Positions 34,656-56,939 of a stretch of 64,000 bases of DNA are shown piece after piece; the stretch's first letter is position 1; every line of letters begins with the position of its first letter. This stretch comes from Natroniella sulfidigena (lineage in GTDB: Bacteria > Bacillota > Halanaerobiia > Halobacteroidales > Halobacteroidaceae). The position numbers and the translations under genes are program-made. Under the pieces are notes generated by a model. It did not search any database. It was given only the letters and a program-made list of their open reading frames with translations, and was not told the origin of the DNA. The stretch lies in the NCBI RefSeq assembly GCF_023223645.1, contig NZ_JALKBY010000017.1:1-64000 (forward strand), written 5' to 3'.

Positions 34656-34673
34656 TAACTCCCTTCAATTAGA

Positions 34674-34897: not shown

Positions 34898-34899
34898 TA

Positions 34900-36036: not shown

Positions 36037-36077
36037 TAAACTCACTTCTCTTTCAATCAAATTGTTTTTTATTGATA

Positions 36078-36210: not shown

Positions 36211-36239
36211 ATTTTGTAATTAAGCTTCACTTTTCTCAA

Positions 36240-37574: not shown

Positions 37575-37704
37575 TCTAAACCCCTCCTAGAAATATGTAA
37601 ATCATACTATTAAGTATTCAATTCAATAAAACCACTTAAAACCCTTTATAAACCCAATTTTATTCTCAGGTTACATAAAACTACATTAGCTTTTAAAAAA
37701 ATAA

Positions 37705-37747
37705 AACCTCTAAGCTCTTTTTAAAATACTGGAAACTTAGAGGTGTT
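37705..37747 (-). terminator. Terminator of the small barrel gene
   Basis: CCTCTAAG and CTTAGAGG arms around 23 nt, followed on the minus strand by TTTTATTTTTTT. Located 18 nt past the stop of the 37765-38289 gene, so that gene and the CsgG-barrel gene are separate units. Confidence 0.75.
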
Positions 37748-37764
37748 ATTATCTTTTAACATAA

Positions 37765-38289: not shown

Positions 38290-38349
38290 TTTAACTCCCC
38301 CTTCCATATTTTTTAGTTTCCAAGTTCATCGCTCCCATTGCTAATCTAA

Positions 38350-38952: not shown

Positions 38953-38976
38953 TATTCCACATCCTTTTAATAAATT

Positions 38977-39462
38977 TTAGCGAAAAATAAGATATAGATA
39001 CCAACTGATCATTGTCAACTGGAGGCCAATCTTGATTATACTACTACTAAAGAAGGCCATTATCGTACCTAGTGCCCTTTTAAAAGCAGAAATCACACCA
39101 GTCTGCTCTACAAAAAAGGTTACTGTAAAGACCATTACAAACGGGCCAACAATAATCCCAATAGGCCCTAAAAGTAATGAACCTCCAATCAAGCCTATAC
39201 TCCCCGCCAATATTGTCCATTTACTACCACCTTGCTTCTTGATAAAAAAACTATTCATAATAAAATCTGAGCTCAAATTTAATAGAGTAATTAACAACAT
39301 GGCAATCCAGAAGCTAGTAGGTATACTTATCGGCGGTTCAAAGAATCTACTTAGAAAGAAAGCAACCCATAATAAGATAGTGTCTGGAATTAAAGGCACA
39401 ACAACCCCTATTAGACTAGTAATAAATAAGATGGCTGTTAGACTTACTAAAAAAAGATTCAT
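38977..39462 (-). CDS. DUF456 family membrane protein
   Basis: 161 residues with four membrane segments (FLVSLTAILFITSLIGVVVPLIP; TILLWVAFFLSRF; FWIAMLLITLLNLSSDFI; GLIGGSLLLGPIGIIVGPFVMVFTVTFFV). The glycine-rich GGSKWTILAGSIGLIGG...GPIGIIVGPF is typical of DUF456. Function unknown in the family. The start is preceded by CAGGGGGGA. Downstream of the GTPase gene by 30 nt. Confidence 0.75.
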   Translation of the reverse strand: MNLFLVSLTAILFITSLIGVVVPLIPDTILLWVAFFLSRFFEPPISIPTSFWIAMLLITLLNLSSDFIMNSFFIKKQGGSKWTILAGSIGLIGGSLLLGPIGIIVGPFVMVFTVTFFVEQTGVISAFKRALGTIMAFFSSSIIKIGLQLTMISWYLYLIFR

Positions 39463-39492
39463 ATTTCCCCCCTGTTCTCTAAATGATCTACC

Positions 39493-40764
39493 CTACATCT
39501 TCCTTTCCTCATATAGTTGCTTATACTTTTTAAACTCTTCTTTAAAAAGGCTCATCAAATGATCAACACTCTTACCTTCACCATAATATTTGTAAGCTAC
39601 TCGACCAACTGCCCAAGTTCCTCCAGCAGCAATACCAGCACTGACAGCACTTCCTAAACCAGGAATCACATTTAATGCTTTAGCTGCTTGTTGAAAACCT
39701 AAAGCAGCACTCCCCAGCAGACCAAAAGAGCCCATAAATTCTTTAGCAGACTGATAATTAATATCCCTACCTGATAAGTAAGCAATCACTGTTACCAGCA
39801 TAGCCTGCAACGGAGTTAAAACATATAAATCAGAAGTTGGGATTGGAGTAGCTCCTATAACTCCTGCTACCTTAGCAAAACCTGTAGTTAGCTCTTCAGA
39901 TAAATACTCAGCAAGCCTTTCATACTCGATTAAATTAATTGCAGCTCTAACCTCTATATTACTTACTAAAACATCCAATAACTTATCTATATTATAAAAA
40001 CCTTCAAACTCAATCTCTAACTGATTAGAAGAACTAACCCCTTCAGGATTAGCACTCCATTCAACATAAGCCGAAACAGGAATAATCTCTAAGGGATTAA
40101 TATTATTTTGCTGACAAATCCTTTCTAATTCTGTAACCGACTTCTTTATATTTTCACGTTTCCTTGCTGGATAATTACTAGGCTTTTTATAGCGTGATGG
40201 CTCCAATTCATCAACTTGGGTTCGCAAAGCAACTATCGGTATTTGATTATTAAAGAGATTACTGATCATTTTTAAACTCTTTATATCTTGATCAAGATGA
40301 CCTCTTTCTTTAGCTTTAGCCAAAAATAAAATTGCATCAGGAGAAAAATCTTCAATAGTTCTTTTTAAAGCTTCTTTTGCCTCATTATTATTTCGAGATT
40401 CTCCAATTCCACGTGTATCAATAATTTCAACAATAGTCTCTCCATTACTTTGATAATTATATTGAGTACTAGTTTGAGTTCCTATCTCTACATCACTAGT
40501 TTCAGCTAAATATTCTCCAAACATAGCATTGATTAAACTACTCTTTCCTGCTCCAGTTCTTCCAACCAAAACAAATCTAGGGGGACGTCGTTCTTTAACT
40601 TCAGTAATTAATTGATTTATCTGGTCATTATTGAATAAGTTATCGATAATCATTTCCCTAATCTTGGTTGGGATATTAATCGGAAGTGACTTTATTAAAC
40701 CATCCAAATAACCATAAAAGTTTTCAATTTTACTCAGTCTTTCTTCTAACTCAATATTATCCAT
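39493..40764 (-). CDS. Era-like GTPase with C-terminal DUF697 membrane domain
   Basis: 423 residues. G1 is GRTGAGKSSLINAMFG, G3 is DTRGIGES; the G4 position reads TQVDEL instead of NKxD. C-terminal region from about 295 matches DUF697 (AGVIGATPIPTSDLYVLTPLQ; LGFQQAAKALNVIPGLGSAVSAGIAAGG), with two hydrophobic hairpins. Related to YfjP/HSR1-type membrane GTPases of unknown role. AAAGGGGTAAT precedes the ATG. Confidence 0.85.
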   Translation of the reverse strand: MDNIELEERLSKIENFYGYLDGLIKSLPINIPTKIREMIIDNLFNNDQINQLITEVKERRPPRFVLVGRTGAGKSSLINAMFGEYLAETSDVEIGTQTSTQYNYQSNGETIVEIIDTRGIGESRNNNEAKEALKRTIEDFSPDAILFLAKAKERGHLDQDIKSLKMISNLFNNQIPIVALRTQVDELEPSRYKKPSNYPARKRENIKKSVTELERICQQNNINPLEIIPVSAYVEWSANPEGVSSSNQLEIEFEGFYNIDKLLDVLVSNIEVRAAINLIEYERLAEYLSEELTTGFAKVAGVIGATPIPTSDLYVLTPLQAMLVTVIAYLSGRDINYQSAKEFMGSFGLLGSAALGFQQAAKALNVIPGLGSAVSAGIAAGGTWAVGRVAYKYYGEGKSVDHLMSLFKEEFKKYKQLYEERKM

Positions 40765-40891
40765 ATTGATTACCCCTTTCTAAAATTGGCTTTTAACTAA
40801 TTATATCATCTTTCAAGATTGATTATTATATTTCCTCTTTAGTAAAATAAAAATACTTGCTTCTAATTAAAAGCAATCCTAAAAGTAAAAA

Positions 40892-40931
40892 AGAGTTAGT
40901 ATGACAACCCCAATTGTCTAATACTAACCCC
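40892..40931 (-). terminator. Terminator of the men operon
   Basis: GTTAGTAT and ATACTAAC arms with an inner GACAA/TTGTC pair, followed on the minus strand by TCTTTTTTACTTTT. No other gene on the minus strand lies between it and menH. Confidence 0.8.
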
Positions 40932-40932
40932 C

Positions 40933-41040
40933 GGTTCAATTAATAATTTACAATGTACAATTAACAATTTATAGTTAAAGATCAACCCCTTAAATTCAAA
41001 GACTTTTAATTGTAAATTGTACATTTCGTCAATTGTCAAG
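40933..41040. repeat. Inverted word-arm element (ACAATGT words)
   Basis: Left arm TAATTTACAATGTACAATTA and TAACAATTTATAG, core with AAAGATCAAC, right arm TTAATTGTAAATTGTACATT and GTCAATTGTC. It accounts for a third of the 317-nt gap between menH and the GTPase gene; the terminator and AT-rich upstream region of the GTPase gene fill the rest. Confidence 0.7.
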
Positions 41041-41081
41041 TGTGAAGCTATTTTATAACCAAGCTAAACCCTCTCGCTAAT

Positions 41082-41888
41082 TTAACAATATTTATCTAAA
41101 TCTTTTTCATAATCTTTAATACTAGCCAACAAAGCATCGTCAAACCGCGGTTGTGCCCGTGGTAGATCATGTGTAGCTTCAGGTATATCGATCAACTTAG
41201 CAGTTGGTAACTTCTTAACAGTCTCATAAGCAATCTTGCGTAACCCTAACTGACTTCTTCCACCAGTATAGATATAGATCGGTAGAGATAGATCTGTAAT
41301 TTTCTCAGAAGAATACTCCGCTGGATATTCTTCATTGATTAAACGCTCTGTCTCATCTAATACCTTTTGCCAAGCTAGTGAGTCTCGTAAATGCTCTGCA
41401 GCTTCAGTACCGATCATTGTCTCAAAAAATCCTTTAGCTAGCTCTTCAATCCCTCGCTCAGAACTTTCTTCAAACAGTGATTTAATCTTATTATTTAATG
41501 AACTTACCTCAGGATCATTAGAAAATAAACTAAAACAAGGTGGCTCTAATAAGTGCAGAGTCGATATCTTATCTGCTAGCTGGTAAGCTACTTCAATAGC
41601 TACTAGCCCTCCATAAGAATGACCAACAAGATGAAAAGAATCGATCCCTATCTCTTTTAAGATAGCTATAATATCTTGAGCATCCTGAGCAATAGTATAT
41701 GGTTTTGGATCTTGAGGACTCTTGCCATGCCCTCTCCGATCACAAATAATCAACCGATACTGCTCACCAAGAGTATCTATCTGTCTCCTCCAAGTTAAAT
41801 AGCCATTACTAAAACCACCATGGATTAAAACTAATGTATCTTCTGCTGATTGATTTAAGTCTCGATAAAATAAAGGTTTCTTCTGCAT
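41082..41888 (-). CDS. menH: SHCHC synthase-like alpha/beta hydrolase
   Basis: 268 residues. Alpha/beta hydrolase with oxyanion region LIHGGFSNGYLTW, nucleophile elbow GHSYGGLVA (Ser near residue 94) and a C-terminal His in PEATHDLPRAQP. In menaquinone synthesis MenH removes pyruvate from SEPHCHC to give SHCHC. The assignment rests largely on its place as the last gene of the men operon, 14 nt after menE; another hydrolase activity is possible. Confidence 0.75.
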   Translation of the reverse strand: MQKKPLFYRDLNQSAEDTLVLIHGGFSNGYLTWRRQIDTLGEQYRLIICDRRGHGKSPQDPKPYTIAQDAQDIIAILKEIGIDSFHLVGHSYGGLVAIEVAYQLADKISTLHLLEPPCFSLFSNDPEVSSLNNKIKSLFEESSERGIEELAKGFFETMIGTEAAEHLRDSLAWQKVLDETERLINEEYPAEYSSEKITDLSLPIYIYTGGRSQLGLRKIAYETVKKLPTAKLIDIPEATHDLPRAQPRFDDALLASIKDYEKDLDKYC

Positions 41889-41902
41889 TTTTAGCTCCTA
41901 TT

Positions 41903-43357
41903 TTAATTATTTGTTATAGTCATATCTGCTAGTTTTCGTCGCATCAACTTACCAGTAGCATTTCTAGGTAATTGAGGAACGAAATAGATAGATTTCGGCA
42001 CTTTATAGCCGGCTAAGTGTTCTCGACAGAAACTAATTAACTCTTCTTGCTCAACTTCTGCCTCTGCTTTAACATATGCCACTGGTACGTGGCCCCACTG
42101 CTCATCAGCTTCTCCAACAACCCCAGCAGCTTCGACTGCTGGATGATTGGTCAGTACATCCTCTACTTCCGCAGGATAGATATTTTCACCACCACTAATA
42201 ATTAAATCATGTAGGCGATCAACAACATAAAGATAACCTTCATCATCTAAATAACCCAAATCTCCTGTATGTAACCAACCATCTTGAATAGCAGTTGCTG
42301 TTGCCTCCGGCTTATTGAAGTATCCTTGCGTAATAGTTGGCCCGCGAACTATGATTTCTCCTACTGTACCAGAAGCTACCTGTTGGCCCTTCTGGTCGGC
42401 AATATAAAGTTCAGTAGGAAATAATGGTTTCCCAGCTGAACCTAATTTATCTAAGGCCTCTTCAGGGGCCAAAGTAGCTACTTGAGAAGTAGTTTCAGTT
42501 AAGCCATAGGTCTGAACTACAGGAGCCTTTATTTGAGCACAACGCCTTAAGAGATCCTCAGGTACTGGTCCTCCTCCTACTAATAAACAACGAAGAGTTT
42601 CAGGATAAGGTCGATCATTACGTTGATTTAGCATTCGTAAAAGCATATTACTGACCAATGAAATATGGCTTACCTTGCCTGCATCTATTGCCTGATTGAT
42701 TATCTCTGGCTCAAAAGAAGAATGAAGCATCATCGGAATACCATAAATCACACTGCGGATTAAAATCGAAAGTCCCCCTACATGAAAGAGGGGCAGACAA
42801 GCCAACCAACAGTCATCATCATAAAGACCTAGATTAAGAAGAGAGCCCATAGCACTTGACCAATAATTTCCATAGGTCAATAAAGCTCCTTTAGGATTAC
42901 CAGTTGTACCTGAGGTATAGATAATACTATGAATATCAGACTTTTGGTGTTGCTGCTGAAGTGAAATTTTTGCTTTGCTGTCTGGTAGTTCGGTAATTTT
43001 AACTTTTTCTTCTAGGTTCAACTTAGTTCCTAATTCTTCAGTCTGCTGATCATAAATTAATAATGAAGCTTCAACATCTTGAAGTTGAAAATTTAACTCT
43101 GAAGTAATTAGGCGGGTGTTCAAAGGAACTAGGATAGCTCCTAGTTTATTCAAAGCATAGATAACTCGCACAAAATCTAGACTATTATACATTAAGACAG
43201 CTACCCGATCTTTAGAGTTTATTCCACAAGCAGCCAACTGCCGGGCCAACTCTATAGCCTGATTGTTAAGCTCTGAAAATGACCAGTGCTTATCTCCAAC
43301 AATTACTGCAGTTTTGTCAGGTGAAATATGAGCCCGCTTACTGAGCCAATCTTTCAT
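41903..43357 (-). CDS. menE: o-Succinylbenzoate-CoA ligase
   Basis: 484 residues, acyl-adenylate ligase fold. P-loop-like IYTSGTTGNPKGALLT, QTYGLTETTSQVATL, TGDLGYLDDEGYLYVVDRLHD and the C-terminal catalytic lysine region PRNATGKLMRRKL. Activates o-succinylbenzoate to its CoA thioester, feeding MenB. AAAGGGGCG precedes the ATG. 20 nt downstream of menA. Confidence 0.93.
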   Translation of the reverse strand: MKDWLSKRAHISPDKTAVIVGDKHWSFSELNNQAIELARQLAACGINSKDRVAVLMYNSLDFVRVIYALNKLGAILVPLNTRLITSELNFQLQDVEASLLIYDQQTEELGTKLNLEEKVKITELPDSKAKISLQQQHQKSDIHSIIYTSGTTGNPKGALLTYGNYWSSAMGSLLNLGLYDDDCWLACLPLFHVGGLSILIRSVIYGIPMMLHSSFEPEIINQAIDAGKVSHISLVSNMLLRMLNQRNDRPYPETLRCLLVGGGPVPEDLLRRCAQIKAPVVQTYGLTETTSQVATLAPEEALDKLGSAGKPLFPTELYIADQKGQQVASGTVGEIIVRGPTITQGYFNKPEATATAIQDGWLHTGDLGYLDDEGYLYVVDRLHDLIISGGENIYPAEVEDVLTNHPAVEAAGVVGEADEQWGHVPVAYVKAEAEVEQEELISFCREHLAGYKVPKSIYFVPQLPRNATGKLMRRKLADMTITNN

Positions 43358-43377
43358 AACTAACGCCCCTTTCTAAT

Positions 43378-44280
43378 CTAGAGCAGACTGATAGCAAACA
43401 ACACTCCGAAGATTAGATGTAATTTACCAGTATTTTTTAAAGTTAGATTAAGTACTGTTCCACTCTTTTGAAAAACATCCTTAATCAATTGACCACCCAA
43501 TGGTAAAGTTAGAAGTGGTAACCAGAAAAGGTTAGTAGCCAACATTCCATTAATCCATAATAAAAGCGGAACAAGATATGCTCCTACAATCAAAAGAGTA
43601 AATTGAAAACAAGTACCCTGTCGCCCTAAACGTACAGCCAGGGTTCTTTTATTTGCTTTACGATCTGTTTTAATATCCCGTAGATTATTTACAACTATGA
43701 TAGCTGTTACCAAAAACCCAACCGGTAGGGAAATATAAAACGAAAATAAATTAATACTGCCAGTATGAAGATAAAAAGTCCCCATCACTGCAACCAATCC
43801 AAAAAAGATAAAGACAAAAAGATCCCCCAACCCATGATATGCTAAAGGCCACGGGCCAGCAGTATAAAGAATCCCTGAAATGATACCCGAAACACCGATC
43901 ACAAAAATTGGCCAACCACCAATCTGGATTAGATAGAGACTGGCTAAAAAAGCCAGTCCAAAAGTAATCCAAATTCCAGCAGTAACCTCTTTGATCGAAA
44001 GAAGACCAGTCTGTGTCACCCTTGTTGGGCCAAGACGTTCTTCAGTATCACTACCTTTTTTGAAATCATATAAATCATTAGTTAGATTCGTTCCTATTTG
44101 AATTAACAAAGTTACTACAAGTGTTACTATAGCTGCTGATAGATTAAAATAACCAAATCTAATGGCAGCAGTTGTGCCTACCAGCACTGGCACTATTGCT
44201 GCTGGTAGTGTCGGTAACCTTGCTGCCATTATCCAAGCTTGAACCTTAGTTACTTCATCTAGCTGTTGATTAATTCCCAT
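43378..44280 (-). CDS. menA: 1,4-Dihydroxy-2-naphthoate polyprenyltransferase
   Basis: 300 residues with eight to nine membrane segments. UbiA-superfamily aspartate motifs NLTNDLYDFKKGSDTEER and NNLRDIKTDRKANKRT are intact. Attaches the prenyl tail to DHNA in the membrane. The next step, the methyltransferase MenG/UbiE, is not encoded in the window. AAAGGAGAGG precedes the ATG. Confidence 0.93.
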   Translation of the reverse strand: MGINQQLDEVTKVQAWIMAARLPTLPAAIVPVLVGTTAAIRFGYFNLSAAIVTLVVTLLIQIGTNLTNDLYDFKKGSDTEERLGPTRVTQTGLLSIKEVTAGIWITFGLAFLASLYLIQIGGWPIFVIGVSGIISGILYTAGPWPLAYHGLGDLFVFIFFGLVAVMGTFYLHTGSINLFSFYISLPVGFLVTAIIVVNNLRDIKTDRKANKRTLAVRLGRQGTCFQFTLLIVGAYLVPLLLWINGMLATNLFWLPLLTLPLGGQLIKDVFQKSGTVLNLTLKNTGKLHLIFGVLFAISLL

Positions 44281-44321
44281 AAGATACCTCTCCTTTCTTC
44301 TGCTTCGCTAGCTCTATATTA

Positions 44322-45140
44322 TTAAGGAAAGCGAGGGAATTGACCAAAGTCAGGCTTTCGCTTTTCTAAGAAAGCATTCTTTCCTTCCTGAGCTTCTTCT
44401 GTCAAGTAATAAAGAAGTGTTGCATCTCCAGCTAACTGCTGAATACCTGCTAGTCCATCTGTATCAGCATTGAAAGAAGCTTTAAGGAATCGTAAAGCTG
44501 TTGGGCTCTTTTCTAAGATTTCGTTGGCCCATTTAATCGTTTCTGCCTCAAACTCTTCAAGTGGTACTACAGTATTCACAAGTCCCATATCCAAAGCTTC
44601 CTCAGCAGAATACTGGCGACATAAATACCAAATTTCTCTAGCTTTTTTATGTCCTACAGTCCGGGCCAACAATGTTGCTCCATACCCAGCATCGAAACTA
44701 CCGACCTTAGGGCCAGTCTGTCCAAAGACCGCATTATCTGCTGCAATTGTAAGATCACAGATTAAATGTAATACATGACCTCCACCAATAGCATAACCTG
44801 AAACAGCAGCAATAACTGGCTTAGGCAAAGTTCTAATCTGACGTTGTAGATCGAGTACATTTAACCGAGGTACGCCATCATCACCAATATAACCTCCATC
44901 TCCTTTTACATTCTGATCTCCTCCGGCACAAAAAGCTTTCTCTCCAGCACCAGCCAAAATAATGACACCTACTTCATGATCTTCTCTAGCTCGAGCAAAA
45001 GCATCCATCAACTCCATAACTGTCTCTGGTCGAAAAGCATTACGAACCTCCGGTCGATCAATGGTAATTCTAGCAATTCCTTGATATGTCTCATATACAA
45101 TATCTGTGTAATCTCCAAATGATTCCCAATTTACTTCCAT
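44322..45140 (-). CDS. menB: 1,4-Dihydroxy-2-naphthoyl-CoA synthase
   Basis: 272 residues, crotonase fold. MenB-specific features: [81 protein letters not shown] and the C-terminal [14 protein letters not shown]. Cyclises OSB-CoA to DHNA-CoA. Preceded by an inverted word-repeat in the 187-nt gap from menD. Confidence 0.97.
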
Positions 45141-45167
45141 GATTTACACTTCCTTTCATTTATTTTG

Positions 45168-45282
45168 TGTCAGTGTGAGTAATGAGTGTCAGTTAAAGTC
45201 AAGAACTTAAAAACACCTTGAATTAAAGGTTTTGTACTTATGTTGTTTCACTCACACAACCACTAACCACTCACACTAGATA
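45168..45282. repeat. Inverted word-arm element (GTGTGAGTG words)
   Basis: Left arm GTCAGTGTGAGTAATGAGTG, a core with AAAGTCAAGAAC, right arm CACTCACACAACCACTAACC and CACTCACAC. Same layout as the elements at 24.4 and 40.9 kb with a different arm word. Lies inside the men operon between menD and menB. Confidence 0.7.
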
Positions 45283-45327
45283 TTAATAAACCTTTTATTT
45301 TAAATAATTACACTCAGCTTAACTTAT

Positions 45328-47109
45328 TTATATAATATTACTTTGTCGCAAGGCAGCAGTCACTACCTCCCACATTTCACGATGTCTAGCTGCATTTATC
45401 TCTCGGTCAGTACAAACTTCAATAACCTGCAATCCACCATCTGACATGCTAGCTTCAATGGCACTATTAAACTCTGGCCAAGTATCTGCCTTGATAAATT
45501 CCCCTTGATACATCTGAACAGCATGCTCAAAATCAAGCCCAATCGGTGTCCCAAATAACTCTTCAAAGTATTCAGGATAATTAGCCTGGGGTAGAAATGA
45601 GAAGATTCCCCCTCCATCATTATTAACCACGATTATCGATAGATCCAATTGATGAAGTTTGGCAGCCAATAGACCATTGAGATCATGATAGAATGATAAA
45701 TCACCAATCACTAAGATCACTGGATCATCAGTAGTGGTACTTACCCCTAAAGCAGTAGAGACAACACCATCGATCCCATTTGCTCCTCGATTAGCTACTA
45801 ACTTAATCTCTTTATCAGTATTAGCAAAAAATGTATCCAAATCACGTACCGGCATACTATTTCCAGCAACAAGGGTTGCCTTATCAGGAAGCAATTCTGC
45901 TAACTCAGTAAAGATTCGACCTTCAAATAGGTCATCATAATCAGACAATCTCTCTTCTATTGCTTCCTTACTAACTTGAGCAGCTTTTAACCAACTTTCA
46001 CTCCAGTCAGTATGCACAGTTGAATGCTTTCTACCTTTTAACTCCCCTGCTAACATTGAGCAAAAAGAGTCTGGATCTACATAGATAAACTCACTTGCTA
46101 AGGCAGTAGGATCATGCCAACCAGCTCCACCATCAATCACAAGCTGTCTCGTATACTGATGCTCCTTTAAATACAGAAATACGGCCTTAGAAGTAGGCAT
46201 CGCTCCAAAGCGAATGATAACTTCCGACTGATAAGAATCACAAAACTCATGATTTCTCAAAAAAGCATCATAATTATCAATCACAAGTTCTTGATTATGC
46301 TTACCACAACGGATTTGTGATAAAGGATCAGCCAAAATTGGAAAGTCAAGTTGATTGGCCAACTCAATAACCGAAGTCGGTAGCTCTTCACCAATTTGAG
46401 GGCCACAGACAATTAAGCCTTCTTCCACTTTGTCCAGTTCAGTAGCCAACTCTTCTAATTGTGCTTGAGCAAGCTTAGGATCTGCCTGTGTAACAGTAAC
46501 ATAACCTTGATTATTTTCACGTCCATTCCGCCCCAGAGATTTTGCTTGTTGAGCCTGATTCCCCGCTAGCGGTACCAATGGCTTACGGAATGGGAAGTTT
46601 AGATGTACCGGCCCAGCAGGAGAATGCTTAGCAGTAGCAACAGCTCGTCCTGCTGTAGTACGAACATAACGTAACATATCTTCTGTTGCCTCAGGCAAAG
46701 CCATTTCAAGAGACCACTTGGCATGGCTTCCATATAGATTCATCTGATCAATAGCTTGAGGAGCCCCTATATTCTGTAATTCAGGAGGACGATCAGCAGT
46801 CAATACCACTAGAGGAATTCGAGAATAATTAGCCTCAATAACCGCTGGTAAAAAATTAGCAGCTGCAGTTCCTGAAGTACAGACTAAAGCCACTGGCTCT
46901 TGATTAACTTTGGCCCTACCTAAAGCAAAAAAAGCAGCTGAACGTTCATCTATATGCCGCCAAACCCTAACTTCTTGATGTTGAGCCAAGATCATAGCTA
47001 GGGGTGTTGATCTAGAGCCAGGACATAAGCAGACATCTTTCAATCCAGCTTTGACCAATTCATCAACAAAAGCTGTAACATAATCATGAGTTATTTGCTG
47101 TTTATTCAT
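45328..47109 (-). CDS. menD: SEPHCHC synthase (ThDP enzyme)
   Basis: 593 residues. Thiamine-diphosphate enzyme: N-terminal CPGSRSTPLAMILAQH, GTAAANFLPAVIEANYSRIPL, and the ThDP/Mg motif GDLSFYHDLNGLLAA...NNDGGGIFSFLPQA. Condenses isochorismate with 2-oxoglutarate. It overlaps the end of menF by 8 nt, so the two are coupled. Confidence 0.97.
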   Translation of the reverse strand: MNKQQITHDYVTAFVDELVKAGLKDVCLCPGSRSTPLAMILAQHQEVRVWRHIDERSAAFFALGRAKVNQEPVALVCTSGTAAANFLPAVIEANYSRIPLVVLTADRPPELQNIGAPQAIDQMNLYGSHAKWSLEMALPEATEDMLRYVRTTAGRAVATAKHSPAGPVHLNFPFRKPLVPLAGNQAQQAKSLGRNGRENNQGYVTVTQADPKLAQAQLEELATELDKVEEGLIVCGPQIGEELPTSVIELANQLDFPILADPLSQIRCGKHNQELVIDNYDAFLRNHEFCDSYQSEVIIRFGAMPTSKAVFLYLKEHQYTRQLVIDGGAGWHDPTALASEFIYVDPDSFCSMLAGELKGRKHSTVHTDWSESWLKAAQVSKEAIEERLSDYDDLFEGRIFTELAELLPDKATLVAGNSMPVRDLDTFFANTDKEIKLVANRGANGIDGVVSTALGVSTTTDDPVILVIGDLSFYHDLNGLLAAKLHQLDLSIIVVNNDGGGIFSFLPQANYPEYFEELFGTPIGLDFEHAVQMYQGEFIKADTWPEFNSAIEASMSDGGLQVIEVCTDREINAARHREMWEVVTAALRQSNII

Positions 47110-48532
47110 TAAAATCCCCCTTTAATGCAGACAAAATTGGTTTTAACTTAAGATATGTTTCTTGGTATTCATCTTCTGGCTCTGAATCAGCTACAATTCC
47201 ACAACCAGCATACAGGTAAGCATTATTTTCCTCTAATAAAGCAGAACGAATAGCTACTGCAAATTCCCCATCTCCAGCAACATCAGTCCAACCGATAGGA
47301 GCACTATACCAACCACGATCAATACCTTCCCTCTTACGAATAAGTTCAATAGCAATCTTTTTAGGCAATCCCCCTACAGCAGGAGTAGGATGTAACTCTT
47401 TGATCACATCAAATAAAGAAGCCTCATCTTTTAATCTACCTCTTACTGGAGTATGTAAATGTTGCACATTTTCTAATTTCAATAATCTTGGTTGATCAGG
47501 AATCTCAAGTTCTGCAGCTACCCTCTTTAAGGAATTACGAATACTTCTGAGCACTATCATATGTTCATGATAATTCTTTGTACTATTAAGTAATCTACTA
47601 CCCAATAGTTGATCTTCTCTCTCTGACACTCCTCGAGCAGTAGAACCAGCCAAACAGCTTGTTTGGAGTTGATCGCCTGCAAATTTGACCAACCGTTCAG
47701 GTGTAGCCCCTAAAAAACATTCACTTCCTTGACCAACTGCAAAGATATAACAAGTCGGATACTGACTCTGTAATTGATCAAGAATACGGGTAGCCGAAAA
47801 ATCCTGTTCAGCCTTAACATGTACTTGACGGGCCAACACAGCTTTTTCTAACTGCTCATCTTTTATATCTTCAGTAAGCTGTTCTACTGCTGCTTTCCAC
47901 TCTAGTGCCTCATCTTCATCATCTTGTAACTCAACCTCATCAGCAACAGTCCTCTTCCAACTTCTATCGCTAGCTTTACTTTCAATCAAACTCCACTCTT
48001 GTTCTATTTCTTCCAACAGTTGATCAGCCTTACTATCCGGTTCAACCATAATATTTGTAGTCAGCCAATATTCTCCCTGAGATATAGTTAGGAGAAATTT
48101 TGGTAGAACCAATAGGGCATCAGGGTAGTTGGCCCAAATAGTAGATGATTGATGTTCAGGGTCAAAATTAAAACCACCCATTAAGAGTGGCCCTGTACCC
48201 TTCAATTGGGTAGCATTCTCTATAATAGCCTCTTCTAAAATCTCAGACCAAGCTTTTTTAACTACAGAAAAACGCTCTTTACCTTCAGCAGCTATAATCT
48301 GACTAGCTCCTAAGCCGACTAAATAAAAATCCTTGCTAGGCCTGCCCCAAAAAAGAACTTCTTCAAATAATTGACGTCCAGCTGCAAAATATGTAAGGGG
48401 CTCAAAAACAGATAACTGTCGACTACAGCTAACTAGCAAACTTCGTTCTTCTTGGCGAGCTTGATTAATCCCTCTTTCTAGCAATTTGTATAAATCTTTA
48501 TGTATCGAAAAAACCGTATTAGTAATAGACAT
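47102..48532 (-). CDS. menF: Menaquinone-specific isochorismate synthase
   Basis: About 476 residues of the chorismate-utilising family: ARQVHVKAEQDFSATRI, FLGATPERLV, STARGVSEREDQLLG, LHPTPAVGGLPKKIA and the C-terminal YAGCGIVADSEPEDEYQET. Converts chorismate to isochorismate, first step of the pathway and first gene of the men operon. ATG 48532 has AGATGAG about 5 nt upstream; ATG 48541 is an alternative. Confidence 0.94.
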   Translation of the reverse strand: MSITNTVFSIHKDLYKLLERGINQARQEERSLLVSCSRQLSVFEPLTYFAAGRQLFEEVLFWGRPSKDFYLVGLGASQIIAAEGKERFSVVKKAWSEILEEAIIENATQLKGTGPLLMGGFNFDPEHQSSTIWANYPDALLVLPKFLLTISQGEYWLTTNIMVEPDSKADQLLEEIEQEWSLIESKASDRSWKRTVADEVELQDDEDEALEWKAAVEQLTEDIKDEQLEKAVLARQVHVKAEQDFSATRILDQLQSQYPTCYIFAVGQGSECFLGATPERLVKFAGDQLQTSCLAGSTARGVSEREDQLLGSRLLNSTKNYHEHMIVLRSIRNSLKRVAAELEIPDQPRLLKLENVQHLHTPVRGRLKDEASLFDVIKELHPTPAVGGLPKKIAIELIRKREGIDRGWYSAPIGWTDVAGDGEFAVAIRSALLEENNAYLYAGCGIVADSEPEDEYQETYLKLKPILSALKGDFNE

Positions 48533-48541
48533 TATTCTCAT

Positions 48542-48825
48542 CTCTTTCTGTCTCTTTACTTTTTATGTAAGTAATTTATATTAGAATTCAACTTAATCAA
48601 TAGTTTAACACTAATTAAAATTAATATGTGTAGTAATTATTAATAATCGATGCTAGCAAACAAAGGATAGATTACTACAATAAGTCCCTTGATGTGGCTT
48701 CATGTACAGCTTTCTAACCATAATTATAATATCATAATTATTAAATTTTTGCAATTAATATCTTATAGTTGTTAATTTTTAAAAACAAGCTAGATCTTAA
48801 GATGATATGTAATCTTAACCAAATT
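48542..48825. other. Non-coding region upstream of menF
   Basis: AT-rich gap between menF and the repeat array behind menC. A more GC-balanced segment at 48690-48720 was examined on both strands; no known riboswitch or terminator was recognised. It should hold the men operon promoter, but no box is convincing. Confidence 0.4.
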
Positions 48826-48977
48826 AAGTTTAAGGTTAAGTCTAAGTTTAAGTAAGACCTAAGATCTTATGCTTTTAATGATTGACTTAGCCTTAAACTT
48901 AGCCTTAAACTTAGCCTTAAACTTAGCCTTAAACTCAGCCTTAAACTCAGCCTTAAGCTCAGCTTTAAACTTAGTTA
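48826..48977. repeat. Inverted-arm element ending in a 12-bp tandem array
   Basis: Left arm AATTAAGTTTAAGGTTAAG and GTCTAAGTTTAAGT, core GACCTAAGATCTTATGCTTT, then a tandem array of CTTAGCCTTAAA with seven full units from 48886 to 48969 (four exact, three with one or two changes) and a partial eighth. The array runs into the menC stop codon (48971-48973). Confidence 0.85.
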
Positions 48978-50080
48978 ACAAACTCCTCTTTCCTGACCGT
49001 ATATTCCTCCAATAAGTCTCGCTTCACCTTAAATCCTAACCCTGGCCCTGTTGGCAGTTCAATATAACCATCTTCGGACAATGTCACTTCCGGAGTAATA
49101 ATATCTTCCTCCCAATATCTAGCCGAGGCTGAAATATCACCTGGCAAACTAAAACCTGGCAAACTAGATAAAGCCAACGCATGGGCCCGACCAACGCCAG
49201 ATTCAAGCATTCCTCCACACCAGACAGGAACTTCTCTTTCCTGGCAAAGTTGATGAATCAACAATGCCTGCCTTAACCCTCCAACTCTAGCAATCTTGAT
49301 ATTAATAATCTGACAACTACCAAGCTCTATGGCCTTCCGAGCTTGGGCAACACTCTCTATACTCTCATCTAAACAGATTGGAGTACCTATCACCTGCTGT
49401 AATTTAGCATGATCAATAATATCATCCTGGGCCAACGGCTGCTCAATCATCATTAATCCAAAACGATCTAATCTCTTTAATCGATTAGCATCAGCCAGTG
49501 TGTAGCTAGCATTGGCATCTACCATCAATGGAAAATTACCATACTTTTCTCTTAACGCCTGTAATGGCTTTTTATCCCAACCAGGTTTAATCTTGATCTT
49601 AATTCGCTGATAACCTAACTCTAAATAATCCCCCACTACTTCAACTAACTGATCCAGATCAGGATAGATACCCACACTGACTCCAGATGGTACTGCTCTT
49701 GATTTTCCATTAAGCAAAGAGATCAAAGAAGTATTATTCTCACGGGCATAAAGATCCCAAACTGCTCCTTCTAACCCAGCTTTAGCCATATGATGTCGCC
49801 TAACTTGTTCTAATAATTCAGCTAATTGAACCGGCTTATCCCACTCCTCTTTAAAAGCTAAAGGAAGCAAAAATTCTTTTAAGACATACCAAGATGTTTG
49901 GGTCGTTTCCTCAGTATAATAAGGAGCAGACAATGCTGAAACCTCACCATAACCTATTCCTTGCTCTGAATGGGCTTCAACTATGATCAAACGCCGCTCA
50001 TCTTCCTTACCAGAACCAGTGACAAAAGGATTCTTCATCTTCATTCCAATTTCACGCAATATAACTTTAGATAACTTCAT
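48971..50080 (-). CDS. menC: o-Succinylbenzoate synthase
   Basis: 369 residues of the enolase superfamily, MenC/NSAR group. Catalytic lysines in RIKIKIKPGWD, metal ligands in PLMVDANASYTL, MIEQPLAQDD and ICLDESIES, and the Lys in INIKIARVGGLRQ. Makes o-succinylbenzoate from SHCHC. Transcribed in the same direction as the men operon but separated by 430 nt with a repeat array, so probably its own unit. AAGGAGTAAT precedes the ATG. Some members also racemise N-succinylamino acids. Confidence 0.92.
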   Translation of the reverse strand: MKLSKVILREIGMKMKNPFVTGSGKEDERRLIIVEAHSEQGIGYGEVSALSAPYYTEETTQTSWYVLKEFLLPLAFKEEWDKPVQLAELLEQVRRHHMAKAGLEGAVWDLYARENNTSLISLLNGKSRAVPSGVSVGIYPDLDQLVEVVGDYLELGYQRIKIKIKPGWDKKPLQALREKYGNFPLMVDANASYTLADANRLKRLDRFGLMMIEQPLAQDDIIDHAKLQQVIGTPICLDESIESVAQARKAIELGSCQIINIKIARVGGLRQALLIHQLCQEREVPVWCGGMLESGVGRAHALALSSLPGFSLPGDISASARYWEEDIITPEVTLSEDGYIELPTGPGLGFKVKRDLLEEYTVRKEEFVN

Positions 50081-50215
50081 GCGATTACTCCTTATCTTCT
50101 TTTATCCCGCTCAGTGATAATTTTCACTTTCATTATTAAAGATTAATTATTCATCATCCTCTTAAGTATTATACTAACGCATTGTGCTAGTATAAAAAAT
50201 GAACTTTATTGATAT

Positions 50216-50335
50216 ATAGATTAAGTTTAACCCAACCATTAAAAAACATAAGGGTTTAGCTCTTACTTGGACTTAGACTTGGACTTAGACTTGGACTTAG
50301 ACTTAAACTCAGACTTAAACTTAGACTTAATTATA
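50216..50335. repeat. Inverted-arm element with 12-bp tandem array
   Basis: Left arm TAGATTAAGTTTAA, core CCCAACCATTAAAAAACATA (reverse of the core at 48.9 kb), then five 12-bp units from 50269 to 50328: three exact GGACTTAGACTT and two AAACTYAGACTT. Lies between the hypothetical gene and menC. Confidence 0.85.
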
Positions 50336-50364
50336 GTTAAGCCAGTTTAATTTGTCAAATATAT

Positions 50365-51081
50365 CTATTCCTGATAAAACTGATTAAACTCCCCCAGCCA
50401 AATACTATTAAAATCCTGCTCAATCTTCAACTTTTTAGCTTCCTCCCAAGTTGTTGGCCCGCCTTGCTCCTTAATCTCCTCTATATCACGCTTGAATTTT
50501 TGATAGTTGTTACGCCTAATTTTGCTACCAGAAATTATATTTCCAGCGGTATCAAGCCCAAATGAACTGACCAAGACCCCTCGTTGATCCCAATATTTCT
50601 TGGCAGGATAATCAATTAGTAACTTATCACCGATCAAGCCTCCAGTCACTTCTAAGTATAAGTCATACTCTTCCGCTCCCCAAAAATTAAGTTCCTGATA
50701 CTTCTCAACAAAGCTCTGATAAGCCTTAATAAATTCCCCTTCAAACTCTTCATAAGTACAAAAGCCCCTAAAGAACCAACATGCTGAGTCATCATCATTT
50801 TTTCTCGGGCCAACAGGCACATCCTTACGCCCTATAAATATTACCCCTTCAAACTCATCCATAGTATAATCAATAATCACTCTACTTTTTAACTCATCTT
50901 TAGCGATTGCTCTTTCAATATTTTCCAAATCATTTTCGATCATTACCTTTTTATGTACCTTATTAATTTCACCTAATAACTTCTTTGCTTCTGCTAAATC
51001 AGGATTATCGATTGCCTCTTCTAAACTTACATACATCCCTTCTAATCTACTAAGAGCCTCTAATACCCTTTCGTTTCCCAT
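50365..51081 (-). CDS. Hypothetical cytoplasmic protein
   Basis: 238 residues, not recognised. No signal peptide or membrane segment. The N-terminal 70 residues look helical and charged (ALSRLEGMYVSLEEAIDN), the rest has mixed alpha/beta character with WGAEEYDLYLEVTGGLIGDK and an acidic, tryptophan- and aromatic-rich C-terminus. A good GTGAGGTGAG site precedes the ATG, and the reading frame shows the same codon style as its neighbours, so it is very likely a real gene. Single unit between two repeat-bearing gaps. Confidence 0.75.
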   Translation of the reverse strand: MGNERVLEALSRLEGMYVSLEEAIDNPDLAEAKKLLGEINKVHKKVMIENDLENIERAIAKDELKSRVIIDYTMDEFEGVIFIGRKDVPVGPRKNDDDSACWFFRGFCTYEEFEGEFIKAYQSFVEKYQELNFWGAEEYDLYLEVTGGLIGDKLLIDYPAKKYWDQRGVLVSSFGLDTAGNIISGSKIRRNNYQKFKRDIEEIKEQGGPTTWEEAKKLKIEQDFNSIWLGEFNQFYQE

Positions 51082-51318
51082 CTTCTCACCTCACAATTTT
51101 ATAATGTCATTCTAAACAATAATTGCTATTCTATAGATTTACTTTAAATTTTTTATTTTAAAAATTTCATCTCACTATATTAAGAAAATCTTTAGTTCAA
51201 TTTAGAACCTTTTTTAAATCTACTTAATATCAATACCACTAAAAATTGAGATTATTAAATTAAGTATATCATATACTGGAGAAGAAAAAAATATTTCACT
51301 CTAAATAATTAATAAAAA
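51082..51318. other. Non-coding AT-rich gap
   Basis: Upstream region of the hypothetical gene at 50365-51081. Nothing beyond short AT-rich runs was recognised; it is followed by a family C repeat. Confidence 0.4.
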
Positions 51319-51428
51319 GTTGCCTCCGCCAACTCAGCTTAAGTCTAAGATTAAATTTAAGTAAAACTAACAAATACAAACTAATAAAAGTTATTCACAA
51401 CCTCTAAAAATTATACCTTCCTAAAATA
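51319..51428. repeat. Family C intergenic element (copy 2)
   Basis: AGTTGCCTCCGCCAACT hairpin remnant, TTAAGTCTAAGATTAAATT words, and the conserved tail (AACTAACAAATACAAACTAA ... CACAACCTCTAAAAATTAT). Directly follows the terminator of the 51462-51674 gene, as copies 1 and 3 do for their genes. Confidence 0.8.
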
Positions 51429-51460
51429 ACAAAAAAGCCATCATATATGATGGCTTTTTT
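51429..51460 (-). terminator. Terminator of the small membrane protein gene
   Basis: AAAAAAGCCATCATATATGATGGCTTTTTT: 13-bp stem with T-run on either strand, 2 nt after the stop codon. Confidence 0.9.
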
Positions 51461-51461
51461 A

Positions 51462-51674
51462 TTAATTCAATATAATTTCAATAATTTCTGTAAGTAACAC
51501 GAAAGGACTAACTAAAGGTATCTCTAAAACTACTACTGAAGCATACACCGTTGCCATTAACCACAACCCAAGAAAAGCAAACAAATCTTTATAATATCCT
51601 TTTTGAATTAAGTCAGACACCTGTAAAAAGGCAATCGTCAACATTATTGCTAGTAACCCCATCAGTCGCAACAT
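51462..51674 (-). CDS. Small two-segment membrane protein
   Basis: 70 residues: LRLMGLLAIMLTIAFLQV and LFAFLGLWLMATVYASVVVL form two membrane segments, and the C-terminus PFVLLTEIIEIILN is hydrophobic. Family not recognised. It has a strong GGAGGAA site and its own terminator. It lies downstream of gerABC but is separated from gerC by a 430-nt repeat-rich gap. Confidence 0.65.
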   Translation of the reverse strand: MLRLMGLLAIMLTIAFLQVSDLIQKGYYKDLFAFLGLWLMATVYASVVVLEIPLVSPFVLLTEIIEIILN

Positions 51675-51699
51675 ACTTTATTCCTCCGAAACAATTATT

Positions 51700-52100
51700 G
51701 ATATAAAGTGGCAAGTGCCACTTTATATCAGTGTACAGTTTACAGTAGATATGGTTTCTATGGGTTTCACGAAAGGTCTTGACAAAGACCTGTAGGGACG
51801 GTTGACAGTAGATACGATCTTTGTGGATATGATTTCTATGATTTTCACGAAAGGGCTGATAAGCCCTGTAGGGGTTTCATGGAGGGTCTTGATAAAAACC
51901 CGTAAGGATAGAAAAAATCTAAGAACTGATTTTTTCATCACGAAGGGTTCAAAGAACCCGAAGAAAAACCTTAAAACCAAAACCACTCTAAGCCTATATC
52001 TTTTCATAGATTTTAATCTCTTAAGATTTTGCTCTTAACTGTAAACTGTAAACCGTAAACTGTCAACTCAATATTGTGGCACCTTGGTGCCACAATATTG
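51700..52100. repeat. Compound repeat block bounded by two perfect palindromes
   Basis: The 431-nt gap between the small membrane protein and gerC is almost entirely repeats. It starts with a 14-bp-stem palindrome (51700-51729, core AAAGTGGCAAGTGCCACTTT). Then come TTTACAGTAGATA words and four hairpin modules (51764-51798, 51843-51872, 51874-51907, 51933-51964). After an AT-rich core follows the right arm (52033-52077, identical to 24521-24565) and a final 15-bp-stem palindrome (52069-52100, core GTGGCACCTTGGTGCCAC). An apparent reading frame through it encodes nothing recognisable. Confidence 0.85.
52069..52100 (-). terminator. Perfect palindrome after gerC, probable terminator
   Basis: CAATATTGTGGCACC and GGTGCCACAATATTG with a 2-nt loop, 5 nt past the gerC stop. 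It lacks a T-run, so it may stop transcription weakly or protect the mRNA 3' end. Confidence 0.5.
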
Positions 52101-52105
52101 TAACC

Positions 52106-53308
52106 CTACCGCGGTTGCGCATCACGATTGACCACACCACTTCTCACTACTGTCGCCTTGACATCAATATCAACAGGCAACTGGGCAAAGGTGCTCTTCC
52201 AATCTTCTTCCAATTCAGCCCACACCTTAGGTTTAATTCGATAAAAAGCAAACCCAAACCCAAAGACATCACTCTTTACTGATTGCGCCTTCTCTAACCC
52301 CTGGTTAATATCATTTTCAATCACTTGAGCCATCCGCCGTTCAATCCTCCTAGTAATCTCTGACTCTTCTTTGAAACTGGTTGGCCCAGAAGTATTAACA
52401 ATTATCCCTCTAGCATTAACTTCAACTTCTATTCTAGGTCGACCATCCTTAATTACCGGTTTAATTTCCGAATCTGCCCGCAGAACCCTAATATCTACTT
52501 CAATCTCTTCATCCCTAGGATACGGTACAAATAAGTTAGCTGAATTTATTTCACCTTTGACCCAATTGATCCCTCTCGTCTGGCGATCATTAGCATAACC
52601 TACTGCTTTACCATTATCAAACAGATAGGCACCAGAAATCATAATCGGGGCAGATCGACCAGGATCAGCCATTTCCTCTGCCCCTTCATCCTCTTCTCTT
52701 TTAAACTTCAAAGCGCCTAGATATGGTTGGTACCCCGGCTGACCAAATTTTTTAAAGAAATCATTTGTATTTTCTCTTGCAGTCCCCCCTACATTTTCAA
52801 CAGTGAGATCGATTAAATTCATCACCCCTAAAGCATTAGCCGATTCAAGTGGTATCTCTGTTGATAATAACTCTTTTACATCATTACCTTTAACAACTGC
52901 TAAGACCATAACCCGCCGACTCTCTCTACTTCGAGCTATAGTATTAGCTACAGGTAATACTCCTTTATGATAGGCCATCCTTTCCGAAACCATATAGATC
53001 AAAGAATGGGCAAACAAAATATTTCTCGATGTCTTTTGCCTCAAATTAGCAAGTGCATCATAGATAGAGTGACCCCAGGCTGAGACAGTCCAGAACCTCT
53101 CATCTCCCCCTTCTCCTTCAAATTCTCCTCCCGCTAAACCTAAAGGGCTAGCCATCTGGAAGATCATTTGATATAATTCCGTTTCGGGATCATAATCATA
53201 ACCCCCAGCAATTACAATTGCATGCTCTTCTGGTTCCATTCTATCCCAACAGCCACTTACTAAAAGAAGAGAAGAAATCATAAGCAAAATCAGCAACCTC
53301 TTATTCAC
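52106..53308 (-). CDS. gerC: Spore germination lipoprotein GerC
   Basis: 400 residues. Lipoprotein signal with lipobox LLLVSGCWDRMEPEE (the GCWD motif is typical of Ger(x)C), then VAGGYDYD-like and EVNARGIIVN regions of the family. It is the lipoprotein subunit of a nutrient germinant receptor at the inner spore membrane. GTG start after GGAAGGAG. Third gene of gerABC; gerB ends 2 nt upstream. Confidence 0.9.
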   Translation of the reverse strand: MNKRLLILLMISSLLLVSGCWDRMEPEEHAIVIAGGYDYDPETELYQMIFQMASPLGLAGGEFEGEGGDERFWTVSAWGHSIYDALANLRQKTSRNILFAHSLIYMVSERMAYHKGVLPVANTIARSRESRRVMVLAVVKGNDVKELLSTEIPLESANALGVMNLIDLTVENVGGTARENTNDFFKKFGQPGYQPYLGALKFKREEDEGAEEMADPGRSAPIMISGAYLFDNGKAVGYANDRQTRGINWVKGEINSANLFVPYPRDEEIEVDIRVLRADSEIKPVIKDGRPRIEVEVNARGIIVNTSGPTSFKEESEITRRIERRMAQVIENDINQGLEKAQSVKSDVFGFGFAFYRIKPKVWAELEEDWKSTFAQLPVDIDVKATVVRSGVVNRDAQPR

Positions 53309-54420: not shown

Positions 54421-56031
54421 TTAGTTGCCCCCTCTATTAGGAGGCTGGGATTGTTGGCCCTTCTCTTTTCTCTGTAATTCCCTCTTAGCTGTAGTCTGAG
54501 GTCGAGTTTGATTAAACCAGCGGGGCAATCTGACTATACTATCTTTGAGATCCTGCCAGATTAAAGGAGCAAAAGGCTTGAAATAAGGTTGCCCAAAAGA
54601 ACGCAAAGCAGCTAAATGAACTATTGTAATTAAGATTCCAAATTGAAGCCCAAACAGACCACTAGCCCCTCCTAGAATTAGAAAAACAAACCTGAGTATA
54701 CGAGCCGTAATTGAAAAAGAAAAATCAGGAGTCGTAAAGGACGAAATAGCAGTTAAGGCTACAACTACTACCATCGGTGGTGAAGCCAATCCAGCTCCAA
54801 TAGCTGCCTCTCCCAAAATTAACGCCCCTACAATACTGATCGCAGGACCAATAGCCTGCGGTAAACGAAGACCTGCCTCCCGTAAAATTTCAAAAATCAC
54901 TTCCATTAACAGTGCTTCAACAGTTAATGGAAAAGGAATCCCATCTCTAGTAGAGGTTACTCTCATCAATAACTCAACAGGAATCAATTCAGGGTGATAA
55001 TTAAGAATTGCTACATAAAACCCAGGCAACAATACCGAGATAAAATAAGCAAAATATCTCAATGCCCTAATCAAAGAACCAACAGGAAATATTTCATAAT
55101 AATCATCAGGTGCCTGTAATAAAGCATGAAAATCGACCGGTAATAATAAGCAAAAAGGAGTCCCTTCAGTTAAAATTGCAACCTTCCCTTCTAACAGATA
55201 GGACACAACTATATCTGGTCGCTCTGTCCGCTTGACCAGCGGAAAAATAGTCATCTCATCCATAATACTTTCTTCTATATAACCTGATTCCAATACAGCA
55301 TCAGTATCCATCTCTTCTAAACGTGACTTAACTTCTGTGATCAATTCTTCATTGACCAGACCTTTAATATAAGCTAAAGCTACTTTAGTTTTAGATAATG
55401 AACCTAGTTCATTATTTTCAATCCACAGATGCGGAACCCTTATTCTATGGCGCAAAAGAGCAACATTAGTACTCAATGTCTCCACAAAGCCATCTCTAGA
55501 GCCTCTCAGCGTAATTTCTGCTTCAGGCTCTTGAATATCTCGCGTCTCAAACTTTGTTGTATCACAGATAATTGCTTCCTTTAATCCTGTAACAACAATA
55601 ATCGTACTACCTAATGCCAACTGCTTCAATATTTCTGCTATCTGATCTGTAAAGCTTAAATCCTTATTATTCAAAACTCTATCAATTAAATCAAGAGATA
55701 ACGAACCCTCTACAGTCAACTGTTGGATCTCTAATAAATTTATTTGTAATTTTTCCAAGATCTCTTCAATTGCCTGCTCATCTGTTACTCCATCCATAAA
55801 AAAGATCGCACACTCTGTCTTTGTGACACCTATTTTAGTCTCTCTAATGCTCAAATCAAGACTAGAACCTAGCAATCCTTTAATATGATCAATATTTTTT
55901 TGAAAATCAGCTTCCATCTTCATCTGATTAACATACTCTTCTCTTTCACTTAAATCAAGATCCTCTAATTGATAAACTTCATCCTCTTGCTGTTTACCAA
56001 TTAAGCTCTTAAGAAATTCGATTATCTCCAT
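54421..56031 (-). CDS. gerA: Spore germination protein GerA
   Basis: About 536 residues. Soluble N-terminal region (1-270) with DLSIRETKIG and GSSLDLSI, then the conserved PDIVVSYLLEGKVAILTEGTPF and FHALLQAPDDYYE, and a membrane region with about five segments (RVTSTRDGIPFPLTVEALLMEV; RLPQAIGPAISIVGALILGEAA). GerA subunits form the ion channel of the germinant receptor. The start is ATG 56031 after GAGGTG; ATG 56061 lacks a site. C-terminal tail is basic (RPQTTAKRELQRKEKG). Confidence 0.92.
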   Translation of the reverse strand: MEIIEFLKSLIGKQQEDEVYQLEDLDLSEREEYVNQMKMEADFQKNIDHIKGLLGSSLDLSIRETKIGVTKTECAIFFMDGVTDEQAIEEILEKLQINLLEIQQLTVEGSLSLDLIDRVLNNKDLSFTDQIAEILKQLALGSTIIVVTGLKEAIICDTTKFETRDIQEPEAEITLRGSRDGFVETLSTNVALLRHRIRVPHLWIENNELGSLSKTKVALAYIKGLVNEELITEVKSRLEEMDTDAVLESGYIEESIMDEMTIFPLVKRTERPDIVVSYLLEGKVAILTEGTPFCLLLPVDFHALLQAPDDYYEIFPVGSLIRALRYFAYFISVLLPGFYVAILNYHPELIPVELLMRVTSTRDGIPFPLTVEALLMEVIFEILREAGLRLPQAIGPAISIVGALILGEAAIGAGLASPPMVVVVALTAISSFTTPDFSFSITARILRFVFLILGGASGLFGLQFGILITIVHLAALRSFGQPYFKPFAPLIWQDLKDSIVRLPRWFNQTRPQTTAKRELQRKEKGQQSQPPNRGGN

Positions 56032-56132
56032 CACAAACACCTCATTTATAATCAAAATCACTACTAAGTATTATGATCATAAAATAGATAATTATACCTT
56101 TATTTGAATCTATTATTACTTATTCCAGATAA

Positions 56133-56676: not shown

Positions 56677-56706
56677 AAAAAAACCTAGAATAGTTAAATT
56701 CTAAGG
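56677..56706 (-). terminator. Riboswitch expression platform terminator
   Basis: On the minus strand CCTTAGAAT-TTAAC-ATTCTAGG (one bulged base) followed by TTTTTTTATTTTC. The 5' arm overlaps the 3' end of the aptamer (ACCCACC, TTAG), so aptamer closing and terminator formation compete. Confidence 0.8.
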
Positions 56707-56775
56707 TGGGTTCGCTACTAACTCCATATAGCTCAAGCGACCAGATACAAGCTATACTTCATCGTTTCTTTATGA
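56701..56775 (-). ncRNA. Cyclic di-GMP-II class riboswitch aptamer
   Basis: Minus-strand sequence from 56775 to 56701 matches the layout of the c-di-GMP-II aptamer known from Clostridium: AAACGATGAAG, then TCTGGTCGCTTGA, a variable hairpin, and the hallmark TTAGTAGCGAACCCACC. In the published aptamer the corresponding parts are AACAATGATGAA, TTGGGCACTTGA and TTAGTAGTGCAACCGACC. CGCT pairs with AGCG and GGT with ACC, with covariation relative to the known aptamer (GCAC/GTGC). A terminator and a Spo0E-like gene follow. The P1 stem looks weak, the main uncertainty. Confidence 0.8.
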
Positions 56776-56939
56776 TATTAATCCTATATTCATTTTTAAA
56801 TTATGGTATAAATTTACATCAATTGACATAATATATGTTATCTTAATTTCTGATTGATCTCATTATACATTCTTATCTAATAATTGTCAAATAAGAATAA
56901 AAATCCTAAAAAATTGTTCTTGTGATTAATTCAAATATG

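Follow-up and report, generated by a model that had tools for sequence, protein, structure and literature searches.

REP elements and BIMEs, the repeats associated with RAYT proteins, are palindromes of 20 to 60 bp that are present at high copy number, mostly between genes, as singletons and in tandem clusters, with stems that vary while pairing is kept and with some copies inside genes (PMC3733652, PMC2817692). A RAYT has its REPs to either side, and the two are inverted relative to each other (PMC2817692). The Y1 transposases of IS200/IS605 elements insert seamlessly beside a short tetranucleotide (PMC7290912), and PATEs are ends-only derivatives of such elements. In Halanaerobium hydrogeniformans, IS605 tnpB carries 64-nt and 28-nt inserts, and a 271-nt PATE-like sequence is also described (PMC7290912). 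Rickettsia palindromic elements are palindromic units of approximately 150 bp that lie in frame in protein genes (PMC10969869).

The hairpins reported here were found in a window (the whole 64,000-nt stretch that was analysed) of a 2.6-Mb draft Natroniella genome, and resemble REPs and BIMEs in each of the general features listed above. Unlike REPs and BIMEs, they have no constant GTAG head 5' of the stem, GNAG being found on both sides and GNAGG forming the 3' terminus, no RAYT is flanked by copies, a further stem lies upstream in one sub-type (type B), and the repeats are restricted to a single bacterial family. Like PATEs, they insert with no target-site duplication, apparently 3' of a short tetranucleotide, type B contains two hairpins, and they are presumably moved in trans. 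Unlike PATEs, their ends match no IS605 seen in these genomes, and they are roughly five times shorter than the PATE-like sequence of H. hydrogeniformans. In common with the 64-nt inserts of that organism, a member of the Halanaerobiales, they include short hairpin-bearing inserts in IS605 tnpB; the H. hydrogeniformans inserts, of unexplained origin and compared by description, were found only inside tnpB. Rickettsia palindromic elements, again compared by description, share the in-frame placement but are far longer than the 33 to 36 nt seen here, where most copies are intergenic. The family works like a REP or a PATE, fails the tested defining features of both REP/RAYT systems and IS605-end PATEs, and is therefore classed as a variant of the palindromic non-autonomous elements. 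The literature was searched for repeats in these organisms, and no description of a palindromic repeat of Halobacteroidaceae was found.

Hairpin modules in the window

A covariance search of the window returned exactly eight places and nothing else with E < 0.07; the model includes the eight window sequences, hence this result shows completeness, not independence. All eight copies reported in the initial annotation were present, each within about 3 bases of where it had been placed. The features are as follows.

4783-4815, forward strand: type A hairpin, covariance match, in a module at 4766-4815
4844-4873, forward strand: type B hairpin, covariance match, in a module at 4815-4872 with stem 1 (GAAAAAATC/GATTTTTTC) upstream
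34746-34775, forward strand: type B hairpin, covariance match, in a module at 34717-34774
36149-36179, reverse strand: divergent hairpin, covariance match, within another interspersed repeat of about 145 bp (36066-36211)
51697-52103, forward strand: composite ('host') intergenic element, whose boundaries recur in many copies in the second Natroniella species (G001; query 18498-18904 of window 33200-53199)
51699-51730, no strand: left hairpin of the composite element, a GTGGCA..TGCCAC palindrome (TGATATAAAGTGGCA/TGCCACTTTATATCA)
51765-51797, forward strand: type A hairpin, covariance match, in a module at 51748-51796
51843-51873, forward strand: type A hairpin, covariance match, in a module at 51826-51872 that is nested in the type A module 51811-51907
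51875-51907, forward strand: type A hairpin, covariance match, in a module at 51811-51907 that is interrupted at 51826-51872
51936-51965, forward strand: type B hairpin, covariance match, in a module at 51907-51964, preceded by an AT-rich stem 1
52069-52100, no strand: right hairpin of the composite element, a GTGGCA..TGCCAC palindrome (CAATATTGTGGCACC/GGTGCCACAATATTG)

Two main sub-types were distinguished among the eight, type A (51765, 51843, 51875, and 4783; for example TTTCACGAAAGGTCTTGACAAAGACCTGTAGGG) and type B (4844, 34746, and 51936; for example GATAGAAAAAATC..GATTTTTTCATCACGAAGGGTTCAAAGAACCCGAAGG, with an additional stem upstream), the copy at 36149 being divergent. The second, AT-rich stem upstream in type B was not part of the initial annotation. 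The hairpin is the conserved 3' portion of each unit: a variable 5' part, in type B a complete AT-rich hairpin, precedes YACGNAG, a stem-loop of 5 to 7 bp, and (C/T)GNAGG, which is the exact 3' end. A loose 'flank + stem' rule gave 76 matches versus 53 to 83 in Markov controls and was not discriminating. The significance of the family comes instead from long-range similarity, whereby BLASTN with window positions 4770-4885, containing one A and B pair, matched 45 places in the genome, with E values as low as 1e-44 away from the query's own locus.

The hairpin cluster at 51764-51964 is a single composite element carrying four nested modules, namely one uninterrupted type A, a second type A that is split by a third, and one type B. 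In order, the element comprises the left hairpin, a heptamer arm, the nested modules, a middle of about 80 nt, the inverted heptamer arm, and the right hairpin. GTGGCA..TGCCAC palindromes number 59 in this genome (G000), 111 in G001, and 0 in a control, and module-free composite elements of approximately 200 bp exist. Among the copies compared for their arm units (window 51697-52103 and L156-L171), both heptamer arms switch unit in concert (ACAGTTT/ACTGTAA, ACAATTT/ATTGTAA, and AAGTTTAAGTCTAAG/CTTAGACTTAAGC), and the arms are again matched in Orenia (GAGTGAC/GTCACTC). The composite element also contains the whole of a 94-aa reverse-strand ORF (window 51723-52007), most likely a spurious one.

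Stem pairing and distribution of the family

The proposal that the stems differ yet remain paired was borne out in the window copies, and double substitutions far exceeded those in shuffled controls. Across an alignment of 22 distinct hairpins, 98.5% of cells were paired compared with 80.6% after shuffling, both sides had changed in 34 cells compared with 11.9, double changes occurred at five of the six stem pairs, and pairing dropped to between 14 and 58% in slid registers. A second alignment, of 21 two-stem units, contained 23 double-changed cells against 6.7 in the control; members of both alignments were chosen for diversity. When copies were instead harvested by similarity only, 12 stem pairs carried a double change, 11 of them with pairing kept; by our estimate from the per-site rate, independence of the two sides would give about 2.6. 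Across genera, stem 1 was rewritten outright and still paired (GAAAAAATC/GATTTTTTC, AAAAATGAC/GTCATTTTT, GATAAATTCT/AGAATTTATC, and GATAAGTGCCC/GGGCAGTTATC). The observation that the initial annotation had named as contrary to its claim, genome-wide copies with no excess of paired substitutions, was looked for; an excess was found, and the claim of compensatory change holds. Either selection or the way in which the units are copied may maintain the paired form.

A genome-wide search with a covariance model, as had been proposed at the outset, detected at least 83 to 101 copies in this genome. With the single-hairpin model there were at least 101 copies in G000, at least 142 in G001, and at least 18, 41, 5, 52, 90, and 75 in the other six family genomes (G002 to G007 in order), whilst five genomes of the neighbouring family contained 0 to 2 and 28 class-mates none. 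At a stricter threshold, and with a model lacking the hairpin beside the RAYT gene, the counts were at least 83, 128, 6, 10, 2, 34, 49, and 35 (G000 to G007 in order). All of these counts are lower bounds, 150 candidates per genome having been scored. The family is therefore present in all eight Halobacteroidaceae genomes examined and almost absent outside them. A strict type B pattern occurred in Natroniella and Orenia only among 84,980 GTDB species genomes, a search from which records of the window's own genome were possibly left out, and the core pattern had no exact match in viral contigs. As expected of REPs, the units are short imperfect palindromes of high copy number (at least 83 to 142 in the two Natroniella genomes) and mainly intergenic: 80 of 84 sampled copies are in no called ORF, and three of the remaining four are inside a 94-aa ORF that is most likely spurious.

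Mobility of the hairpin units

The hairpin units are mobile and have entered the composite element, IS605 tnpB genes, and other hairpin copies. This was established from seven empty and filled site pairs at the DNA level, in which 36 to 58 nt were gained and no target site was duplicated (0 of 7), bearing out the earlier suggestion of non-autonomous mobile hairpins. In the composite element, a type A unit of 49 nt, the same unit as at window 51748-51796, was gained at ACAGTT^GACGG (read by eye in the G001 copies), and in another pair a type B unit of 58 nt was gained. In tnpB, L147 (G003) gained 43 nt relative to L037 (G000), L146 (G005) gained 36 nt in frame relative to L151 (G003), and L151 gained 42 nt relative to L146, creating a stop. 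The remaining two pairs are type A units nested in type A units, each a gain of 47 nt; in the window this is the unit at 51843, for which the copy at 4766-4815 represents the empty site, and in G001 the empty-like site was taken from another copy.

In all seven pairs GNAGG formed the 3' end of the inserted unit and a WRYN-like tetranucleotide stood directly 5' of the insertion, although the number of independent events is small, since two share the heptamer array and two are nested in A. At the junctions, position -3 was G in six pairs and A in one, -2 was always a pyrimidine, and +1 was always a purine; in three of the seven, the last base before the unit differed from that of the empty site. 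Insertion without target-site duplication, as seen in all seven, is a property of PATEs, whereas DDE-type MITEs, defined by terminal inverted repeats and target-site duplication, do not fit, as none of the seven shows a duplication.

In G001 the intergenic site (C114) that is orthologous to the one with the type B module at 34717-34774 has no such module, another orthologous intergenic site carries a different element in each of the two Natroniella species, and in G007 one unit apparently lies, by reading, within the loop of another. An MCP gene of G004 contains a 33-nt unit in frame (SSTTEGSRTRR) where its homologs read EAARA-G; judged from the protein homologs, this copy is probably an insertion, and an Orenia MCP appears to keep a remnant at the same place. 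Several MCP genes of G004 and G005 (L223, L220, L216, L217, and L218) have 9 to 33 extra bases at this shared EAARA-G signalling-tip site, one set being an intact hairpin unit and another resembling its remnant.

Candidate enzymes and alternative readings

With moderate confidence, we regard the family as non-autonomous palindromic elements of approximately 36 to 60 nt that an HUH/Y1-type transposase, acting in trans, mobilises in single-stranded form. The enzyme, either an IS200/IS605 TnpA or the RAYT, would recognise the hairpin in the single-stranded DNA of the lagging strand. Y1-type single-strand transposition would account for seamless insertion beside a short tetranucleotide, for nesting, and for stems that change but stay paired, and an RNA function is not needed to explain the hairpins. 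While movement is demonstrated by the empty sites, the mobilising enzyme is inferred. This genome encodes three intact Y1 genes beside tnpB plus one RAYT, and Y1 genes, intact or broken, occur in seven of the eight family genomes, the exception (G004) having the fewest copies. G006 and G007 have only broken Y1 genes, yet contain at least 49 to 90 and 35 to 75 copies, respectively, so the copies there are either old or were moved by something else. Type A units are oriented with the neighbouring genes in 2 cases and against them in 13, as a replication-strand preference would give, and type B units show a weak bias (34 with, 20 against). No transposase with family hairpins on both sides was found, nor was IS608-like complementarity between guide and cleavage site when sought by eye. 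The units are unusually small for mobile DNA, their empty sites are resolved to the base, their stems covary, and their target is short. If a Y1 enzyme does move them, the hairpins would come close to the minimal substrate of single-strand transposition and could be used to study the origin of REP-like repeats in the absence of a cognate RAYT. They also offer a candidate explanation for the unexplained hairpin inserts in Halanaerobium IS605 tnpB.

Strict REP elements mobilised by the resident RAYT appear unlikely, despite hairpin size, intergenic position, and tandem clusters that resemble REPs. One Y1 protein of this genome, 181 aa long, is RAYT-like (its score of 71.5 bits is below the curated cut-off of 80); it has relatives in G001 and G005, a fragment in G006, and none in the other 37 related genomes. 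Upstream of the RAYT gene in G000, at a distance of 226 bp, there is a family hairpin (E = 1.4e-6 with a model trained without that hairpin). However, this is a single hairpin on one side of one RAYT locus, with none at the other three of the four loci, and at a density of about one copy per 26 kb it is not strong evidence. The palindromes nearest to the G000 gene are of another kind (ordinary GTAGGGG..CCCC), copy number does not follow RAYT (copies are numerous in G003 and G007, which gave no RAYT match), and in place of a GTAG/CGTC tag at one end, GNAG flanks both sides of the stem, mostly as GAAG in type B. The REP-like character first proposed for the repeats thus stands for palindrome, copy number, and intergenic position, and fails for the RAYT link, the tag, and the flanking inverted pair. 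The search for a RAYT-type or other transposase with matching ends yielded the RAYT, which has no flanking pair of hairpins, and IS605 elements whose ends differ. The RAYT genes of G001, G005, and G000 (L071, L072, and L070) contain GTAG-type palindromes within the reading frame, and that of G001 has a stop.

Somewhat more doubtful is the idea that the two sides of a stem are made complementary during copying, through arm-templated repair or template switching, and not by selection on point mutations, the flanks alone being constant; the hairpins would then form a distinct class of single-strand transposons of less than 60 nt. If stems are re-made in this way, both the rewriting of stem 1 and the joint change of the heptamer arms would follow from the same copying process.

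We consider it improbable that the hairpins are PATEs, i.e., ends-only derivatives of resident IS605 elements. In several IS605 copies (L037, L147, and L152) a hairpin does lie 9 to 10 nt past the stop codon of tnpB, and in a second subfamily (L146 and L151) it lies at the stop itself. The true ends of these elements, however, are other hairpins located further out (..ACGGGCTTGCCCTT..), and the identity of ends with an autonomous element that characterises PATEs was not found. L148, of the same IS605 subfamily, is without the unit, and up to four units occur per IS605, some inside tnpB with an empty counterpart. The units in IS605 are guests, the elements being targets, and not ends. A role as IS605 right end or as a native part of the omegaRNA was likewise rejected, given the unit-free L148 and the empty counterparts of the tnpB units. 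The IS605 element in L037 (G000:C29:40500-45000) splits a tyrosine integrase gene.

We give even less credence to a structured cis-acting RNA (a regulator, processing, or terminator hairpin) held in place by selection, which covariation and intergenic position would fit, as would retention behind tRNA-Glu genes in Orenia and G012 and in the feoA-feoB gap in G005 and G007. Against this, copies run both with and against transcription, sister species differ in their presence or absence, some insertions break tnpB or lengthen it in frame, and no terminator signature was found over the modules. Rfam assigned no family to the window copies, its only match being a c-di-GMP-II riboswitch at a different place in the window, and gave no match on six Orenia loci. 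Spread by recombination or slippage only, with tandem amplification of the composite element and units that are not self-mobile, is scarcely credible, for although tandem arrays of 77- to 145-bp units occur in several genomes, the empty and filled pairs speak against this being the only process, as they are single clean insertions into unrelated sequence (tnpB and hairpin interiors) with an identical 3' end.

Units after tRNA-Glu genes and between feoA and feoB could have been recruited. Directly after tRNA-Glu(TTC) in G005, G007, and G012, hairpins are followed by a repeat of the last ~9 bases of the tRNA (GGGGTACCA and GGGATGCCA) and are sometimes in tandem (L153 520-595, L154 581-656, L105 778-853, L115 1553-1628, L186, and L187). 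In the feoA-feoB gap of two Orenia genomes (L050 and L057; G005:C7 and G007:C8), tandem units of ~134 and 145 bp each contain one hairpin. The c-di-GMP-II riboswitch (window 56696-56778, reverse strand) is located upstream of a GerA-type spore germination operon (54421-56061 and following).
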